37,776 bases of DNA from Dysgonamonadaceae bacterium (GTDB lineage: Bacteria; Bacteroidota; Bacteroidia; Bacteroidales; Azobacteroidaceae), in contig JAISWH010000078.1 of the NCBI GenBank assembly GCA_031271125.1, forward strand, positions 1-37,776, written 5' to 3'. Below, piece after piece: positions 2,146 to 9,059 of the stretch (position 1 is the stretch's first letter; each line of letters opens with the position of its first letter). The position numbers and the translations under genes are program-made. The notes under the pieces are model-generated. The model was not told the origin of the DNA. It made no database searches and saw nothing but the letters and a program-made list of their open reading frames with translations.

Positions 2146-5100
2146 TTAGTTTGCTATACAGCGAACAGCGTTCCCCTGGGTACGGTAGAAATAGCTCATG
2201 GTAGCCATATAATTGGATAAGTGCATGTAGTAGGCGTAGTTGGTGTTGTTAGTATAATACGTCTTTGACCAGTAGCTACCCTGTAAACCTCGGTAATCCA
2301 GCGTCCCATCATTATAGTCGCGAGAGCCGATAGCCGGCAAAAACAGGAGGCCTCCAAAGTTGCAACCGCTTGTGTAGTTGCCTGCATTATCAGTCCATGT
2401 AGCGCCGCTAGGTACGGTTTGAGGATTGAGCGCTGTATTTATTACACCCTCCCATTCCGCACGCGTAGGCACGTGGTAACCCGTTGGACATGGATCGTTA
2501 GTCGTCGACCAATTGTTCGAAGTTTGATAAGGATACTTAGTCGTGTTCGTCCAGTCGGTAATAGCTCCCGGAGTAGATTGGTCAACAGTCATCGATAAAG
2601 TCTCATTTTTTGCCCCAAACTTATACTTGGCCCCGTGAAGATATTGATTTGGTATAAAAGGATCGAGGGTTTCTTCATTTGTCACACCCAAATTATAGCA
2701 CATAAACTTTTTCCATTGATTGGCAGCCACATATGCCCCGCAAGCGCACATGCAGTCCTGCACGTTTATTTTCAGTTCCACGCGTTTCTTCGTACCTACG
2801 GGTAGTTCTTCGTAAAGGGCATACAGGGTAATGGTAAGGGCCGAGGTTTCGCCTTTATCCGCCGCCTTGGCCAGCACGTCTTGGTTGAAGGTAATCGTAT
2901 GCGTTTTACCCACAATATCACTGGTTTCACTTTGTATTAATACACTCGGGTCGTCAGTCACAAATTGCGGGTTGATATAGGTCGGAGCATCCGATGCAAG
3001 AACAAAAGTATAGGTATATTGAGCCTTGCTCGGATCCCAGTCGCGATTTATACCCAAAAAGTCACCCGTACGTTGCGCCTGCGTACCGCAGGTAGCATCG
3101 AAGTTGCCTTGTGCCACATCGAGGCAGTTCTTGCCAATCAGATAGAAGTTTCCACTGGTATCGAGTGTATAGTTGTTCGGATCGACCTTCACATCCAAGG
3201 TCGCCTGTGCCGTCAAATCACCTACAAGCGTACATTCGTTGGTCACCTGAACCAATACGGTGTATGTCCCCGCATTGACGGGAGTATAACTGAAGGTATT
3301 GGTGGCCGATGTCCCTTGATAGCTTCCGTTTACAAACCACTCGTATTTCAGGTCGCTGTTGTTGTTGCTGGCATTGGTAGTTGCCGAAAAAATGGTCGGG
3401 GTGCCTTCGATAAGGCTGATCGTCCCGTTGGGGGTCAGGTTGACCCATGTACCGGTCATACAGCCGTCTTTTACCTGTATGGTCTGTTCGAGGGTAACGT
3501 CTCCACACGGGTGACCTACACTTTTTACAACGATTTCCACATCAGGCTCTGTATTGGCAGGTAAAGTGCTTATTCCTCCATATTGTATTACCGCCAATGT
3601 ACCGTTGTCGATAGGGTTGATCGATACCACGGCATTGGGATTATTGGTATTGTAGCTCCAACTGTATTGGCCGGCAACAGGTGCAGAGTTGATGGAGTAA
3701 ATCACCTGATCGCCTTTGATAACATTCGCAGGTACAAGATTCCAGCTCATATTCAGCGAAGCGCTTTGTATCACATCTATCGAGGTAGATACCACACTCC
3801 AACAGCCGTTGCTATCTTTGTAGCGAACGGTATATTTGCCCGGCTGGGTGGTGCTCAGGGTCTGGTCGGCTCCCGCCACGGTGGAGCCGTCTTTCATCCA
3901 CTCGTAGTTGCCTGTCCCTGCCGCATAGTCGGCAATCAGGGTAGCCGGTGTGCCGCCGCAGATAGCCGCCTGCGATGCCCCGTTGTTGATGGAGGTAATG
4001 CCCGGAGCGGTAGCCGTTACGCTTACCGGAGGCGATACGACCGTGTTGGGACAGCTGCCGCTTTGGTCGCTGGCTGTCACCCAAAGCACCATGCTGGTGG
4101 TGTTGGGAGCTACCACATACATGACCGGCTTGGTACCTCTGCCGATAGACACGCCGTTGTCGAACCACTCGTATTGTGTGCCCGGAGGGAAAGCGTCGGC
4201 ATTGGTGATCTCTAATTTCAGGGTACCCCCTTTACAGATGGTCAGTGTACCCGTCAGCGGCTGCCCGTTGACCGCTGCCTGCGGAAGTGTCAGGGCTGCG
4301 CTCGCACTCGTGTTGTCGGTCAGGGTAAGCGCATTACTCGCGTTAGATACGCAACCGCTTGCATCTGTTGCCACGGCAAACCAGCTGCCTGCTTCAGCTG
4401 CTCCCGAGAGAGTGAGCGGATTGTCATTCCTGTTTGCCCCTGTCAATGGCATACCATCGTGATACCAAAGCACGGGATCGGTAGTGTTGGCCGTCAGGAT
4501 TACATTTTCTCCCGCACAGAGGATACCTCTGTTGGTGGCATCGATGCGTATGGCCGAAGGAGCGGTGGAAGCATCGGCCGTCACAGTGAGCGTAGCAGCT
4601 GTGCCGCAGCCCAAAAGGCCTGTGTAGACCTTATATACACCTGCGCGTTTGATCTCCATCCAGCTGCCGGTATGTACGATCACACCCGCGTATGTCCAGA
4701 TATAGTCAACCCCTGCCACCGCATTAGTAACATGGGCAAAGACACTGCCTCCCGAACAGAGCGTAAGGGCAGTACTGTTCAAGGTGGGATCGGAATGGCT
4801 TGTACAGGTAGCTCCCAATTGGGCGAAGACAAAGTCTTTGAACTCGCCCGTGCAGTTGCTCGTTACCCGTACCACGGCATTGCGCGGGGAGCTGCTGTTG
4901 TTGGGGCTGAAGTTCACGCTGAAAGCCGATGTCAGCGGGTCTACCGTCAGGGTGGCATAGCTGCCGCCCGCCATGATCAGCACCTCGAAGGCCTGCCCGG
5001 CAGAAACGACACAGGCGGGCTTTTCTACAGGGGTGTATTCACAGCCCGAGTGATTGCCGTCGGCCGTTTCCACTGGCGGGTTCAGCACATCGTAATTGCC

Positions 5101-5475
5101 GCAGGGCGATTGCAACTCGATGTCGGCCGTGCCCAAGCGAAGGCTCACCCATTTGTAACCGTTCCAATACTCTACGCAGTTGGTATCGGTATTGTAGATG
5201 CTCAACCCCAGTGCCAGACCGGGGGCAATGGAGGCGGCATCCCCGCGCTGATCTTCTGCCAGAAACTCGGCGGTGGCACTCAGGGCATCCCGTTCCGCGG
5301 TCGTGAGTTGCGGCAGTCGCAGCCCGCCCGTCGAGTTGGATACGATCTCCAGGATCGAGAATTTTTGGGGAGGCGTAGCATCCCCGATAGTAACCTGTCC
5401 TTTGAGCAGTCCGGCAAAGGGAAGCATAAAAAGAAACAAGAGTAAAACTCTGAATGTTGTTTTTGTTGTTTTCAT
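2146..5475 (-). CDS. Large secreted Ig/PKD-like repeat protein with C-terminal FISUMP domain
   Basis: 1109 residues from ATG 5475. The frame is open to 5586, but the signal peptide (MKTTKTTFRVLLLFLFMLPF) begins at 5475. After the signal comes a Bacteroidota surface-protein N-terminus (VTIGDATPPQKFSILEIVS, then NCVEYWNGYKWVSL). Several Ig/PKD-like beta domains follow, with recurring Y-x-W and G-x-Y patterns and a Cys in many of them. The last ~190 residues match the FISUMP (Fibrobacter succinogenes major paralogous) domain: CPTGYHVPTRAEWEGV, RDYNDGTLDYRGLQGSYWS and a terminal RCIAN. The protein is probably cell-surface exposed, and the ligand is unknown. Its entire upstream region sits inside or beside the inverted-repeat segment 5543-6767, so expression may switch. 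I found no TAnnTTTG match just upstream. GC is about 53% in a sampled row. Confidence 0.85.
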   Translation of the reverse strand: MKTTKTTFRVLLLFLFMLPFAGLLKGQVTIGDATPPQKFSILEIVSNSTGGLRLPQLTTAERDALSATAEFLAEDQRGDAASIAPGLALGLSIYNTDTNCVEYWNGYKWVSLRLGTADIELQSPCGNYDVLNPPVETADGNHSGCEYTPVEKPACVVSAGQAFEVLIMAGGSYATLTVDPLTSAFSVNFSPNNSSSPRNAVVRVTSNCTGEFKDFVFAQLGATCTSHSDPTLNSTALTLCSGGSVFAHVTNAVAGVDYIWTYAGVIVHTGSWMEIKRAGVYKVYTGLLGCGTAATLTVTADASTAPSAIRIDATNRGILCAGENVILTANTTDPVLWYHDGMPLTGANRNDNPLTLSGAAEAGSWFAVATDASGCVSNASNALTLTDNTSASAALTLPQAAVNGQPLTGTLTICKGGTLKLEITNADAFPPGTQYEWFDNGVSIGRGTKPVMYVVAPNTTSMVLWVTASDQSGSCPNTVVSPPVSVTATAPGITSINNGASQAAICGGTPATLIADYAAGTGNYEWMKDGSTVAGADQTLSTTQPGKYTVRYKDSNGCWSVVSTSIDVIQSASLNMSWNLVPANVIKGDQVIYSINSAPVAGQYSWSYNTNNPNAVVSINPIDNGTLAVIQYGGISTLPANTEPDVEIVVKSVGHPCGDVTLEQTIQVKDGCMTGTWVNLTPNGTISLIEGTPTIFSATTNASNNNSDLKYEWFVNGSYQGTSATNTFSYTPVNAGTYTVLVQVTNECTLVGDLTAQATLDVKVDPNNYTLDTSGNFYLIGKNCLDVAQGNFDATCGTQAQRTGDFLGINRDWDPSKAQYTYTFVLASDAPTYINPQFVTDDPSVLIQSETSDIVGKTHTITFNQDVLAKAADKGETSALTITLYALYEELPVGTKKRVELKINVQDCMCACGAYVAANQWKKFMCYNLGVTNEETLDPFIPNQYLHGAKYKFGAKNETLSMTVDQSTPGAITDWTNTTKYPYQTSNNWSTTNDPCPTGYHVPTRAEWEGVINTALNPQTVPSGATWTDNAGNYTSGCNFGGLLFLPAIGSRDYNDGTLDYRGLQGSYWSKTYYTNNTNYAYYMHLSNYMATMSYFYRTQGNAVRCIAN

Positions 5476-5542: not shown

Positions 5543-5564
5543 CTGTCGCTATTACAGCGACGGA
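5543..5564 (+). repeat. Left half-site of a 22-bp inverted repeat (candidate inversion site)
   Basis: This 22-bp sequence recurs as a perfect reverse complement at 6746-6767. Its core is GTCGCT-ATTAC-AGCGAC: two 6-bp arms in dyad around a 5-nt asymmetric centre. Tyrosine recombinase crossover sites have this geometry. It lies 68 bp upstream of the surface-gene ATG. It is not followed by a T-run on either strand, which argues against a terminator. Confidence 0.7.
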
Positions 5565-5635
5565 AGCTGTTTTTCGGATTTTGCAAACGCTTTATTATCA
5601 GGCTCTTACAGACGGTTGAAAAAGGGGGTGACCTC

Positions 5636-5659
5636 TTTTGTTAAACAATTTGTTAAACA
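5636..5659 (+). repeat. Tandem TTTGTTAAACA motif, copy 1
   Basis: Two adjacent 12-bp units, TTTTGTTAAACA and ATTTGTTAAACA, form a 24-bp block that recurs exactly at 5747-5770. Spacing near one helical turn and occurrence between divergent genes suggest a regulator binding site. The adjacent AraC-type protein is the obvious candidate, since AraC-family proteins usually bind direct repeats. That link is inference. Confidence 0.6.
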
Positions 5660-5672
5660 AATTTGAATAAAA

Positions 5673-5689
5673 AAGGACTTTTTGTCCTT
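5673..5689 (-). terminator. Terminator-like hairpin pointing toward the surface gene
   Basis: A 6-bp stem (AAGGAC with GTCCTT) and a 5-nt loop, followed on the minus strand by TTTTTATTC. It would stop minus-strand transcripts that start between it and the regulator, or act as an attenuator in a long leader of the surface gene. The stem is short, so efficiency is uncertain. Confidence 0.4.
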
Positions 5690-5746
5690 GTAAATAGCTA
5701 AATGCTACTTGTTTAGATTGCCTTTTAGCCTGTTTCGATTTTGGCG

Positions 5747-5770
5747 TTTTGTTAAACAATTTGTTAAACA
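5747..5770 (+). repeat. Tandem TTTGTTAAACA motif, copy 2
   Basis: Exact second copy of the 24-bp block at 5636-5659. It ends 18 bp before the ATG of the AraC-type regulator, a position suited to autoregulation of that gene. The 19-nt stretch 5755-5773 is also identical to 26765-26783 in a distant decayed locus. Confidence 0.6.
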
Positions 5771-5788
5771 TTTAGTAAACGGCTATCT

Positions 5789-6667
5789 ATGAGCAGATTA
5801 TTGTATGTGCAGGAACATCTGCCCTGTATCAACTACGAGCACCGCAAGGATGCATATATTCGTGAAGAAAGGATCGAGAAGGCACAGCCTTTGGATATGT
5901 TCTGTCAGGTCAATACGATCGTGATAGTGGTAAAGAATCCGATCCTGCTCTCTTCGGATATAATCCGTCAATACAGGATCGCGGAGGAAGCCATGTTCTT
6001 TCTTCCGGCAGGCAGCAGGCTGAGCCTGAGCCCGGTAGGGGAAGAGGCAAGCGTGTTGCTGTTCCGCTTCTTTGAGCGCATACGCCTCTGTGACAGCTTT
6101 CCCGTAGAGAGGGTCTTCAAGCGGAAGGCTTCTGAACCCGTGCGGAAGATAGAGGATGCAGAAGGCAAGCCCTTTCTGCTGAACTTAAACATGATAGCCA
6201 AGAAATACCTCTCCTTGTTGCTGGATTGTCACAGGGCAGGGCTAAGGTGTTGCATCTATAACAAAAGCAAGGTAGAGGAACTGCTGTTCATCCTGCGGGG
6301 CTTCTACGGCAAGCAGGAGCTCGCCCTGTTCTTTCATCCGCTGATCAATGCCGATGCCCTCTTTACACAGACCGTGATGGCAAACAGCCTCTCGTGCAGG
6401 AGTATATCCGAGCTGGCAGAGAAGACGGGCTATAGTATTTCGGGCTTCGAGAAGAAGTTCAGGAAGGTATTTAACGAGGCTCCTTACCGTTGGATGAACA
6501 GGCAACGCCAAAAGGATATCTACCACAAACTGCATAGCACATCGATGAGTATCAGCCAGATAAGCGACTCACTGGGCTTCAGCTCGCCTGCCGTTTTCAA
6601 CGACTATGTAAAACGCGCCTTCGGCACCACACCACGGCAATTGCAGGCAGGCGGAAATAAAGAATAA
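5789..6667 (+). CDS. AraC-family transcriptional regulator
   Basis: 292 residues. The C-terminal third (about 195-285) is a double helix-turn-helix of AraC/XylS type: SISELAEKTGYSISGFEKKFRKVF, then SISQISDSLGFSSPAVFNDYVKRAFGTTPRQ. The N-terminal part has a cupin-like look (FFLPAGSRLSLSPVG) and may sense a ligand. There is no membrane segment. The gene is divergent from the large surface gene across about 310 bp and lies entirely between the two 22-bp inverted repeats, so an inversion would turn it around. It converges on the recombinase gene. Likely target: the divergent surface gene and itself, through the tandem TTTGTTAAACA blocks. GC is about 60% in a sampled row. Confidence 0.85.
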   Translation: MSRLLYVQEHLPCINYEHRKDAYIREERIEKAQPLDMFCQVNTIVIVVKNPILLSSDIIRQYRIAEEAMFFLPAGSRLSLSPVGEEASVLLFRFFERIRLCDSFPVERVFKRKASEPVRKIEDAEGKPFLLNLNMIAKKYLSLLLDCHRAGLRCCIYNKSKVEELLFILRGFYGKQELALFFHPLINADALFTQTVMANSLSCRSISELAEKTGYSISGFEKKFRKVFNEAPYRWMNRQRQKDIYHKLHSTSMSISQISDSLGFSSPAVFNDYVKRAFGTTPRQLQAGGNKE

Positions 6668-6745
6668 AACTGCGGAAACGAAGAAGGAGTATCTTTCTTT
6701 TTATGGTTAACTTTGCCGCTCACAGGCATTCATTTTTTTGGATCA

Positions 6746-6767
6746 TCCGTCGCTGTAATAGCGACAG
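6746..6767 (-). repeat. Right half-site of the 22-bp inverted repeat (candidate inversion site)
   Basis: Perfect reverse complement of 5543-5564. It lies 79 bp after the stop of the AraC-type gene and about 105 bp from the 3' end of the tyrosine recombinase gene. Flanking bases differ from those of the left copy beyond the 22 bp, so identity is confined to a site-sized element. Confidence 0.7.
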
Positions 6768-6872
6768 CGTGCATTTCTTCCTGAAACAAAGTTACGAATA
6801 TTTGCTTTATTCATCGGTTTTTATTGCAGATTTAACATTTGAGGCGCAAGTACTACTTTCCCTGACAGCAGC

Positions 6873-8177
6873 TTAGAACACGCGGTGGAAGAGCTCCTCC
6901 CTGCAAGGCGGCCGGGAGTGTGGCGACAGTATGGCCGCACAGACGATCTCGTTGGCCCGGTCCAGGCGCGATCGTTCGAAGCCCGCCAGGTAGGTATGTG
7001 TCACCTTCTGGCTGCTGTGTCCCAAGCCTTCACTGATCACCCACAGGGGCAGGTTCTCCCGTTTGGCGATCGTAGCCCAGCTGTGGCGGGCAACGTGCGT
7101 AGAGAGCGGGCTGTTGATGCCGGCCATCTTGGCCAGTTCTTTCAGGAGCAGGTTCTGCCGGCGAAGGGCGGTCTCGTATTGCAGGCGTTCTGCCTGTGCG
7201 CTGCCCGTCGATCTGATGATAGGGAACAGGTAGGGGCTGTGGGCAGTGTCCCGGGCAAAGCTCTCGATGATACTTTTCATCAGGGGATCGATGTGCAGCT
7301 CGATCATTCCGCCCGTCTTCTTGCGGTAGTAACGGATACTGTTGCCACGGACATTTTCTTTTTTGAGGTAGGCCAGATCCACAAAGCACATCCCGCGGGC
7401 ATGGAAGCAGAAGATAAACAGCCGCCAGGCCTTGTAGAGCTTCCTGTCGCAGGGGCTCTCGGGTTGCCTGTCCTGATGCAGATAATGCTTGAAGGACAAC
7501 TGCTGGATGCGTTGCATCTGGGTGGTATCCAGGGCTCGCTTGGGGGTTCTGCTGAAACCGGTGAAGACCGTCTTGAAGGGATTGATGCCTTTCTGCTCGA
7601 CGAGGCCTTCTTCGATGGCTTTGCGGTAGATGGCACGCAGGCTGCGCATATAGAAGGAGATGGTGTTCAGGCTTTTGCCCTGCGCTTTGAGGTGCTGCTC
7701 GAAACGGGTGATCAACTCGGGACTGATATCTTCTACCAGCAGTATCCTTTTTCGGGTAAATGAGAACAGGCATTCCACCGATGAGCGGTAGGCACGGGCG
7801 GTACGCAGCTGCCCCCGGCTCTGCATGTGGCTGATAAGCCGGTTGCTGTAGGCCGAAAGGCTCTTTAGTGAGCACAGGTTGTTGAAGAGAAGCAGGGCGA
7901 TGTCGTTGACCGTGTCCGAGGCAGGCTGGCCGGCTCTTAAACGGGAAAAGTGCTCGCTGAGCACAAGCAGGTAGGCGTTCGTTTCTTCGATGTACTTGCT
8001 GCGCTCTGTGATGCCGTTGTCTTTCGCACAAAAGAGTGCGGTGTCCCATTCCTGCGCATGGAGCTGGTAAGGAGTGGTGATTACTTTGATCTTGCGGCGA
8101 TAAATAATGCGGGCGCAGAGGCTGCCCGCGCCCCCCGGACGGGAAGACGAACGGAGGAAAAATCGGAGTGATGCCAT
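6873..8177 (-). CDS. Tyrosine recombinase (site-specific integrase, Bacteroidota arm-binding type)
   Basis: 434 residues, a normal length for the family. Residues 1-110 resemble the arm DNA-binding domain, about 120-205 the SAM-like core-binding domain, and about 215-410 the catalytic domain. All catalytic residues are visible: R261 (in HARGMCFVDLAYLKKENV), K286/K287 (YYRKKTGG), H361-x-x-R364 (HVARHSWAT), H387 (EGLGHSSQ) and Y396 (KVTHTYLAGF). The HARGMCFVDLAYLKK context is typical of Bacteroidota recombinases that act on local inverted repeats to invert promoters or surface genes, as well as of mobile-element integrases. A matching inverted repeat lies just beyond its 3' end. It is intact with no frameshift and about 60% GC, clearly foreign to the flanks. 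Confidence 0.9.
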   Translation of the reverse strand: MASLRFFLRSSSRPGGAGSLCARIIYRRKIKVITTPYQLHAQEWDTALFCAKDNGITERSKYIEETNAYLLVLSEHFSRLRAGQPASDTVNDIALLLFNNLCSLKSLSAYSNRLISHMQSRGQLRTARAYRSSVECLFSFTRKRILLVEDISPELITRFEQHLKAQGKSLNTISFYMRSLRAIYRKAIEEGLVEQKGINPFKTVFTGFSRTPKRALDTTQMQRIQQLSFKHYLHQDRQPESPCDRKLYKAWRLFIFCFHARGMCFVDLAYLKKENVRGNSIRYYRKKTGGMIELHIDPLMKSIIESFARDTAHSPYLFPIIRSTGSAQAERLQYETALRRQNLLLKELAKMAGINSPLSTHVARHSWATIAKRENLPLWVISEGLGHSSQKVTHTYLAGFERSRLDRANEIVCAAILSPHSRPPCREELFHRVF

Positions 8178-8276
8178 AGGCTCAGACTAATTTGGGTTTA
8201 TGAGTGATAATTCTATTTTTTGATTCCGAAAAACCCCACCCTGTCCCGCTTACTACCGTACTCGAAGTACAATTGC

Positions 8277-8284
8277 TATCTTTG
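8277..8284 (+). promoter_or_regulatory. -7-like element TATCTTTG before the IS110 remnant
   Basis: Matches the Bacteroidota TAnnTTTG -7 consensus and sits 43 bp before the ATG of the IS110-like fragment. No clear TTTG at the -33 spacing. Probably the old transposase promoter. Confidence 0.4.
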
Positions 8285-8327
8285 TAGCTTAAATTAAGTA
8301 ATTGTATAACAATTAAAATGTAAGTTT

Positions 8328-8495
8328 ATGGACAAATGTTGTGGTCTTGACGTGCACAAAGATAGCATATTTGGCGTGTTATGCAATCGGATTTTTCATT
8401 AAAGTTGGCCAATCCGTATTTTATCAAACAGCTACCGGGTCGAAAAAGCGATGTGAAAGATGCGCATTGGATATCGCAATGCGTGCTTTCAATTA
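8328..8495 (+). pseudogene. IS110-family transposase remnant
   Basis: The frame starting at 8328 reads MDKCCGLDVHKDSIFGV, the N-terminus of IS110-family DEDD transposases including the first catalytic Asp. It stops at 8402. A second frame from about 8405 reads LANPYFIKQLPGRKSDVKDAHWIS, the later PGRKSDVKD block of the same family. About 50-60 residues are missing between the two, with a frameshift, and the C-terminal half is absent. Sequence of another element follows at about 8496. Non-functional. Confidence 0.8.
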
Positions 8496-8611
8496 TTTCC
8501 GATAACGGATCCGAATTTTACGAGCACAAACGTATCGCTAAATATCTGGACGCAAACTATTTTTTTGCTCACCCTTATTCCTCTTGGGAAAGAGGACTGA
8601 TGGTTTTATAA
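8496..8611 (+). pseudogene. IS30-family transposase remnant fused to the IS110 remnant
   Basis: Continues in frame from the IS110 fragment: SDNGSEFYEHKRIAKYLDAN then YFFAHPYSSWERGL. This is the DDE core of IS30-family transposases (second Asp region and the PYSSWERG block). The expected NENTNGLIRQ and the rest of the C-terminus are missing; the frame ends after three unrelated residues and runs straight into the 40-bp terminal repeat. So an internal deletion joined the catalytic core to the right end. Confidence 0.75.
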
Positions 8612-8723: not shown

Positions 8724-9059
8724 ATGGACAAACAAGAAAAATCAACAACTAACGACGACGTTCCTGAGAAGCAGGAAGATGTGAAAAATTATGCCTTTGT
8801 ATCCAAAAGGGCATTGGAAACCGACCATATCGGTTATTGTTACCGAGATACTCCTGAGAATAATATTGACAGCGGATGGCGATTCCTCTACGGCGATGAG
8901 GATGATGAATACCTGGATAATCCTACAAATACCGAAACGGTCTATCCCGAACAAATGCTATCCATTAATCCGGCCTTGGACGGCATTTTGTCCGCACCCG
9001 TGGGTTGTGAATTCGAATGGGACGACGAACAAGAAATTTATGTTGAGATTGTAGATTAA
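8724..9059 (+). CDS. DUF2185 / Imm33-like protein (orphan immunity-type)
   Basis: 111 residues, soluble, acidic. The pattern YAFVSKRALETDHIGYCYR, then DSGWRFLYGDEDDEYLDNP and a C-terminal PVGCEFEWD matches the DUF2185 family, which includes immunity proteins named Imm33. Such proteins neutralise polymorphic toxins when next to a toxin gene, but many are stand-alone and of unknown role. No toxin gene lies nearby: upstream are IS remnants and downstream a sugar isomerase-like lipoprotein. It has its own strong promoter. The first 25 residues (MDKQEKSTTNDDVPEKQED) look disordered. Functional assignment rests on family resemblance only. Confidence 0.65.
   Translation: MDKQEKSTTNDDVPEKQEDVKNYAFVSKRALETDHIGYCYRDTPENNIDSGWRFLYGDEDDEYLDNPTNTETVYPEQMLSINPALDGILSAPVGCEFEWDDEQEIYVEIVD

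Follow-up and report, generated by a model that had tools for sequence, protein, structure and literature searches.

A candidate invertible cassette carrying its own AraC-family regulator in a Dysgonamonadaceae bacterium and its relatives

The window analyzed here is a whole 37,776-bp contig (JAISWH010000078.1; C14) of the draft genome of a Dysgonamonadaceae bacterium (GCA_031271125.1; 2.55 Mb in 197 contigs, estimated to be 83% complete). It contains a 1.2-kb segment that is bounded by palindromic inverted repeats, holds an AraC-family regulator gene and adjoins a tyrosine recombinase gene. Cassettes of the same anatomy recur in relatives, and in a few of them the segment is inverted between homologous loci. 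The locus is likely to be an invertible cassette with its regulator on board, in which the recombinase flips the 1.2 kb and a promoter past the AraC gene drives a surface-type gene when the switch is ON. The features of the locus are as follows, and L, G and C numbers denote loci, genomes and contigs, respectively.

2146..5475, - strand: presumed switched gene, coding for a protein of 1109 aa whose domains are Ig-like/PKD-type and, marginally, FISUMP
5543..5564, + strand: left inverted repeat on the surface-gene side, palindromic, 100% complementary to the right arm, putative recombination site
5565..6745: putative invertible segment of 1181 bp, bounded by the arms and holding the operators, the AraC gene and the outward promoter
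5637..5659, + strand: distal tandem repeat, two copies of TTTGTTAAACA, 72 bp inward from the left arm, likely an operator for AraC
5748..5770, + strand: proximal tandem repeat, two copies of TTTGTTAAACA, 18 bp ahead of the AraC start codon, likely an operator for AraC
5789..6667, + strand: AraC-family regulator, 292 aa (PF12833)
6708..6715, + strand: TAACTTTG, -7 box 30 bp from the right arm, part of a predicted promoter that faces outward
6746..6767, - strand: right inverted repeat on the recombinase side
6873..8177, - strand: 434-aa tyrosine recombinase and presumed invertase, with PF00589 and PF13102 scoring above their cut-offs

The arms are complementary at 22 of 22 bp, are separated by 1181 bp and each contain the dyad GTCGCT-ATTAC-AGCGAC, as the original prediction from the sequence had described. 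With up to 2 mismatches, the 17-bp arm core occurs twice in the window (0 of 100 shuffles) and elsewhere in the draft genome only as one lone imperfect site on C158; a second site pair was not found in the 2.55 Mb (83% complete), and the pair thus has no counterpart in the draft. The reading frames of the AraC protein, the recombinase and the large protein are all open. The AraC-type gene expected between the arms is borne out by a helix-turn-helix domain (PF12833, HTH_18) scoring 61.4 bits against a Pfam cut-off of 33.6. The prediction of an intact tyrosine recombinase beginning about 105 bp outside the right copy holds as regards the open frame and the Phage_integrase domain, which is above cut-off, but it is the 3' end of the gene, not its start, that lies there. 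The predicted 1109-residue FISUMP surface protein is indeed an open frame of 1109 aa, whose first ATG (5475, - strand) is 67 bp away from the left arm; however, its FISUMP match lies just under both curated cut-offs (29.8 versus 33.9 bits for Pfam and 41.6 versus 41.65 for NCBIfam), and the name is to be taken as approximate.

In the proposed mechanism, the adjacent tyrosine recombinase would recombine the two 22-bp palindromic repeats and thereby flip the intervening 1.2 kb, which would be organized as tandem AraC operators followed by the AraC gene and, shortly after its stop codon, a promoter facing outward. In the ON state, AraC would point away from the recombinase and the promoter would drive the large surface-type protein. 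In the OFF state, which the window would represent, AraC points at the recombinase and the promoter would run into the 3' end of the recombinase gene.

Recurrence and orientation of the cassette in relatives

Relatives were collected with the recombinase as bait from named contigs (the best 80 of 167) and further genomes, and palindromic inverted repeats were sought mainly 3' of each recombinase. Loci with a short segment without AraC were assigned to class A, and those with a segment of about 1.0 to 1.3 kb containing an AraC gene to class B. In total, 31 class B cassettes, the window and 30 relatives, combine a recombinase, palindromic inverted repeats and an AraC gene between them, with an inner distance between the arms of 951 to 1311 bp. 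Within a locus, the arms match perfectly in 26 of the 31 cassettes and with 1 to 3 mismatches in the other 5; from locus to locus the arm sequence varies. Among 151 distinct recombinases scoring above 170 bits, from which cassettes L240 and L116 are absent, 77 have a palindromic pair; AraC accompanies it in 29 of them and is missing from the other 48, a figure that is an upper bound because the automatic choice took apparently unrelated palindromes at some loci (e.g., L052, L202, L044, L050, L133, and L338). Distant relatives of the recombinase (L082 to L119 without L116, mostly marine or Flavobacteria-type) served as an internal control and have a palindromic pair in 1 of 37 cases (L093). AraC genes that adjoin a recombinase without detectable repeats (L058, L060, L061, L062, L029/L166, L245, and L051/L213, the last at a contig end) are kept outside the 31. 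At the DNA level, a search of the whole region against 58 genomes gave, outside the window, only four matches of 36 to 51 query bases, all in the recombinase gene. In L246, L247, L250, L253, and L256 the segments measure 951 to 983 bp and the AraC frame only 141 to 192 aa, and in L251 the frame passes the repeat; the regulators of this group are possibly HTH-only or decaying.

In a FastTree phylogeny of 137 recombinases, that of the window groups with those of L149, L189, L191, L192, L170, and L179 (local support of 100), the first four of which have AraC cassettes with window-like proteins beyond them. Class B membership changes 16 times over this tree, in which rows without a class label include loci cut by contig ends, and at least 12 of the changes are forced by well-supported branches, which indicates that AraC carriage has probably changed repeatedly across the recombinase family. 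The window recombinase keeps K287, R364, H387, and Y396 and is presumed to act as the invertase. Its Cys264 aligns with Arg-I of an XerC-like chain, with Arg261 nearby; an Arg corresponding to residue 261 is present in 115 of the 137 aligned recombinases, and the arrangement is therefore probably a family trait. Variations were also seen in the family. The recombinase-side repeat of L079 (7233-7261) overlaps the final bases of the recombinase gene, and in L167 (6135-6451), as in L036, the palindromic pair is 263 bp apart and lies on the 5' rather than the 3' side of the recombinase. With the thresholds used, 8 relatives of the window recombinase occur in genome G432 and 13 in G465, several with their own repeat pairs, and these sets are possibly large private switch collections.

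AraC is convergent on the recombinase in 28 of the 31 cassettes and has the same direction as the recombinase in L189, L064, and L328. The comparison of orientation in related genomes that the original prediction had called for gave each of these three at least one counterpart with collinear flanks and an inverted segment. The Alistipes-type loci L064 and L057 are orthologous by position, with at least 1 kb collinear on both sides and part of the AraC segment aligned on the opposite strand. The flanks of L189 are collinear on both sides with those of L191, L149, and L192, and the segment is inverted; L189, L191, and L192 all belong to one genome (G432), and the inverted block ends exactly at one repeat (L189 7699, L191 6252). 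The same relation holds between L328 and L240, L244, and L253. Inversion between homologous loci of relatives thus upholds the predicted phase-variable inversion in part, but switching within one population or in the organism of the window, and the role of this recombinase in it, are what we infer from these comparisons. In L057 (about 7310-8503) and L064 (7303-8526), the AraC cassette and recombinase stand, in opposite orientations, just before ribosomal protein genes, which we take by eye from their translations to be those of L35 and L20.

A profile of 23 cassette AraC proteins, searched against 393 genomes, found the family at 53 places in 28 genomes: 4 known cassettes (the window, L149, L150, and L151), 40 loci that were fetched and 9 that were left unexamined. 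A palindromic pair with a recombinase was not found at 39 of the 40 fetched loci, the remaining one being the L064 locus. Because only 5 of the 44 examined places are cassettes, the regulator family is mostly fixed and outside cassettes. DUF3575 is in reach at 5 of the 40 fetched loci, and in all five AraC lies upstream and is co-directional, which matches the layout proposed for the ON state. Each of these five AraC-DUF3575 stretches holds at least one copy of TAnnTTTG, the box considered below; the stretches are 130 to 1701 bp long, and only the shortest (L294) is telling.

Promoter box, operators and the probable OFF state

TAnnTTTG is the -7 consensus of the primary sigma factor of Bacteroides, which is accompanied by TTTG around -33. 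Between the AraC stop codon and the end of the arm, 24 of 28 cassettes have TAnnTTTG on the AraC strand, compared with 2.96 expected from dinucleotide shuffles, and 1 of 28 has it on the opposite strand (1.9 expected). In the stretch upstream of AraC, for which the first 200 bp were used in five short-AraC cassettes, the box occurs in 4 of 28 on each strand, with 3.2 and 6.4 expected. These counts leave out L251, whose AraC frame passes the arm, and L150 and L328, which were found outside the count. The combined -33/-7 pattern gave one strict match among 29 cassettes, and the -7 box is informative by itself. In the window, the outward promoter is represented by the motif TAACTTTG at 6708-6715, which at present faces the 3' end of the recombinase gene and, flipped, would face the large protein; TAnnTTTG was not found, in either direction, in the left arm or in the 67 bp that separate it from the start codon of the large protein. 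The conserved box thus points to an outward promoter just past the AraC stop, and the window orientation is probably OFF. The original prediction had described regulator and surface gene as divergent in this orientation and had counted the upstream region of the surface gene as part of the segment, which would place its promoter beside the TTTGTTAAACA blocks and make the window ON; these counts do not support that placement, since the conserved outward box lies at the AraC 3' end and the blocks look like the regulator's own operators.

Tandem 11-bp half-sites like TTTGTnAAACA lie upstream of AraC in 14 of 28 cassettes, against 0.33 expected from mononucleotide shuffles; the motif was derived by visual inspection of the very sequences in which it was then counted, and as many as 5 mismatches in its 20 fixed positions were tolerated. 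They are found 58 to 73 bp from the arm in 10 of the 28 and 18 to 19 bp before the AraC start codon in 7, and both tandem sites of the window are exact. The TTTGTTAAACA blocks are most simply read as putative AraC operators for autoregulation, and AraC may control the outward promoter as well. Beyond the distal arm, a DUF3575 match starts within about 160 bp in 14 of 29 scored cassettes, and a FimA-type protein lies beyond the L046 cassette.

The box faces only the recombinase in 23 of 29 AraC cassettes (L064 among them) and in 30 of the 48 loci without AraC; it faces only the target in 1 and 4, both ways in 1 and 0, and neither way in 4 and 14, respectively. Because the AraC-less relatives lean the same way (30 versus 4 of 48), this bias suggests self-limitation of the recombinase. 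A tentative extension, which we would not put forward as the probable one, is a self-limiting switch, in which the OFF promoter would run antisense into the recombinase gene, damp the recombinase and hold the OFF state, while the ON state would release this brake and soon return to OFF. Such a switch fits both the box bias and the loss of OFF bias seen in Bacteroides fragilis when the recombinase is supplied in trans (PMC4747536). That loss fits a brake in cis and proves nothing for the present locus, and selection could also cause the bias.

Alternative readings and points against inversion

Several observations weigh against an active inverting cassette with an outward promoter past AraC. 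Only 3 of 31 cassettes have the other orientation, for which reason flipping may be rare. The reverse junction is not assembled in the window's own draft genome, a single assembly of this organism. Contig ends, counted as a test for mixed orientation, fall within 200 bp of the recombinase 3' end in 8 of 135 cases and of the 5' end in 5 of 135, which is no clear excess. On its other side, the inverted block of L189 loses similarity about 210 bp before the repeat, where the collinear recombinase-side block crosses the arm, and two of the six nearest recombinases (L170 and L179) show no cassette. As regards the promoter, TTTG lies 17 to 23 nt upstream in 0 of the 24 outward boxes and at 25 to 27 nt in 6; the outward box was not found in L057, L064, L081, and L249, and the box present in L064 faces the recombinase from the AraC 5' side. 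As regards the target, the window-like protein in L149, L189, L191, and L192 starts 440 to 850 bp beyond the arm rather than adjoining it, and no fimbrial or FISUMP match was found near L057 or L064.

ON and OFF could still be reversed by an AraC-dependent promoter of less strict sequence next to the distal operator: reading out through the left arm to the surface gene, it would make the window ON, with inversion turning the gene off. In 10 of 28 cassettes, a tandem operator lies 58 to 73 bp inward from the arm closest to the AraC start, which in the common orientation is the surface-gene side; this is a plausible place for a divergent promoter of relaxed sequence activated by AraC, and the window has the commoner orientation. 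Nevertheless, TAnnTTTG is not enriched on that strand (4 of 28 versus 6.4 expected), whereas 24 of 28 cassettes have it at the opposite end; the box faces the recombinase at AraC-less loci too; fixed relatives with DUF3575 in reach have AraC upstream and co-directional (5 of 5); and the window has no such box in the left arm or between it and the start codon. We regard an operator-side promoter as rather unlikely. A cassette that once inverted and is now frozen in this lineage, with AraC merely a divergently encoded regulator, would account for the missing reverse junction, the strong orientation bias of the family (28 of 31) and the lack of a clear excess of contig breaks; it is unlikely in view of arms that are still perfect and a recombinase that is open and keeps its catalytic residues. 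Each arm is also a palindrome able to form a stem, so that the 22-bp dyads might be fixed operators or transcript hairpins and not recombination sites. This reading is highly improbable and was rejected because the pairs match within a locus and the intervening segments are found inverted between loci; in addition, the pairs differ between loci, adjoin recombinases and are missing at 39 of the 40 fetched AraC relatives. An invertible cassette with its promoter at the AraC 3' end remains the reading we prefer.

Near the recombinase, window positions 8328-8378 read by eye as MDKCCGLDVHKDSIFGV, which presumably resembles the start of an IS110-type transposase, and no frame of at least 80 aa starts there in the open reading frame listing. 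A small protein at 8724-9059, upstream of a TIM-barrel gene, has an Imm33 immunity-type domain (81 bits against a cut-off of 25.4). A defense-system scan of six neighboring proteins gave one weak match (16 bits) and otherwise none.

Significance and comparison with known systems

If the proposed mechanism is true, the joint movement of AraC, its likely operators and the outward promoter would place fimbriae and large surface proteins under random switching linked to a sensed signal. If the switch is also self-limiting, it would combine with the internal autoregulated AraC to join a heritable DNA state and a signal-dependent gate in one portable unit, and the consistent bias toward one orientation makes this feedback hypothesis testable. 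Scans tuned to short segments might miss regulator-carrying cassettes of about 1.2 kb.

Among the Bacteroidota switches in the literature covered, most are promoter inversions, and no inverton that carries a regulator in this way was found there (PMC12632263, PMC10939037, PMC13114119, and PMC7366714 included; supplements, preprints, and subscription papers aside), and this silence is weak evidence of absence. The original expectation that a regulator inside the segment would be unusual agrees with the lack of a published account, but with 31 cassettes the arrangement is not a one-off.

In B. fragilis YCH46, the local promoter IVp-I of BF2766 is mostly OFF in the wild type, and this bias vanishes with plasmid-supplied recombinase (PMC4747536). 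The segments of that system are promoter segments, and AraC has no occurrence in the main text of the report, whereas an AraC gene lies inside the segment here; the B. fragilis recombinase also acts on a distant site (PMC4747536), whereas no second pair was found in the incomplete genome studied here. Invertons of a defined gut community similarly tie inverted-repeat groups to integrase groups and fimbrillin genes in Bacteroidota, and the main text of that report likewise contains no occurrence of AraC (PMC11892184). As proposed for the present cassette, the tyrosine recombinase FimB of Escherichia coli inverts a piece of DNA and thereby connects a surface-structure operon or cuts it off, but its fimS segment measures 314 bp (PMC9993118) compared with 1.2 kb with a regulator gene inside. 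The Hin segment of Salmonella also carries a gene within the invertible DNA; that gene is the recombinase itself (PMC5903667), whereas here AraC is inside and the recombinase outside. Against these systems, the cassette is rated as an invertible-promoter switch with its regulator carried inside, and the internal regulator is what is new.

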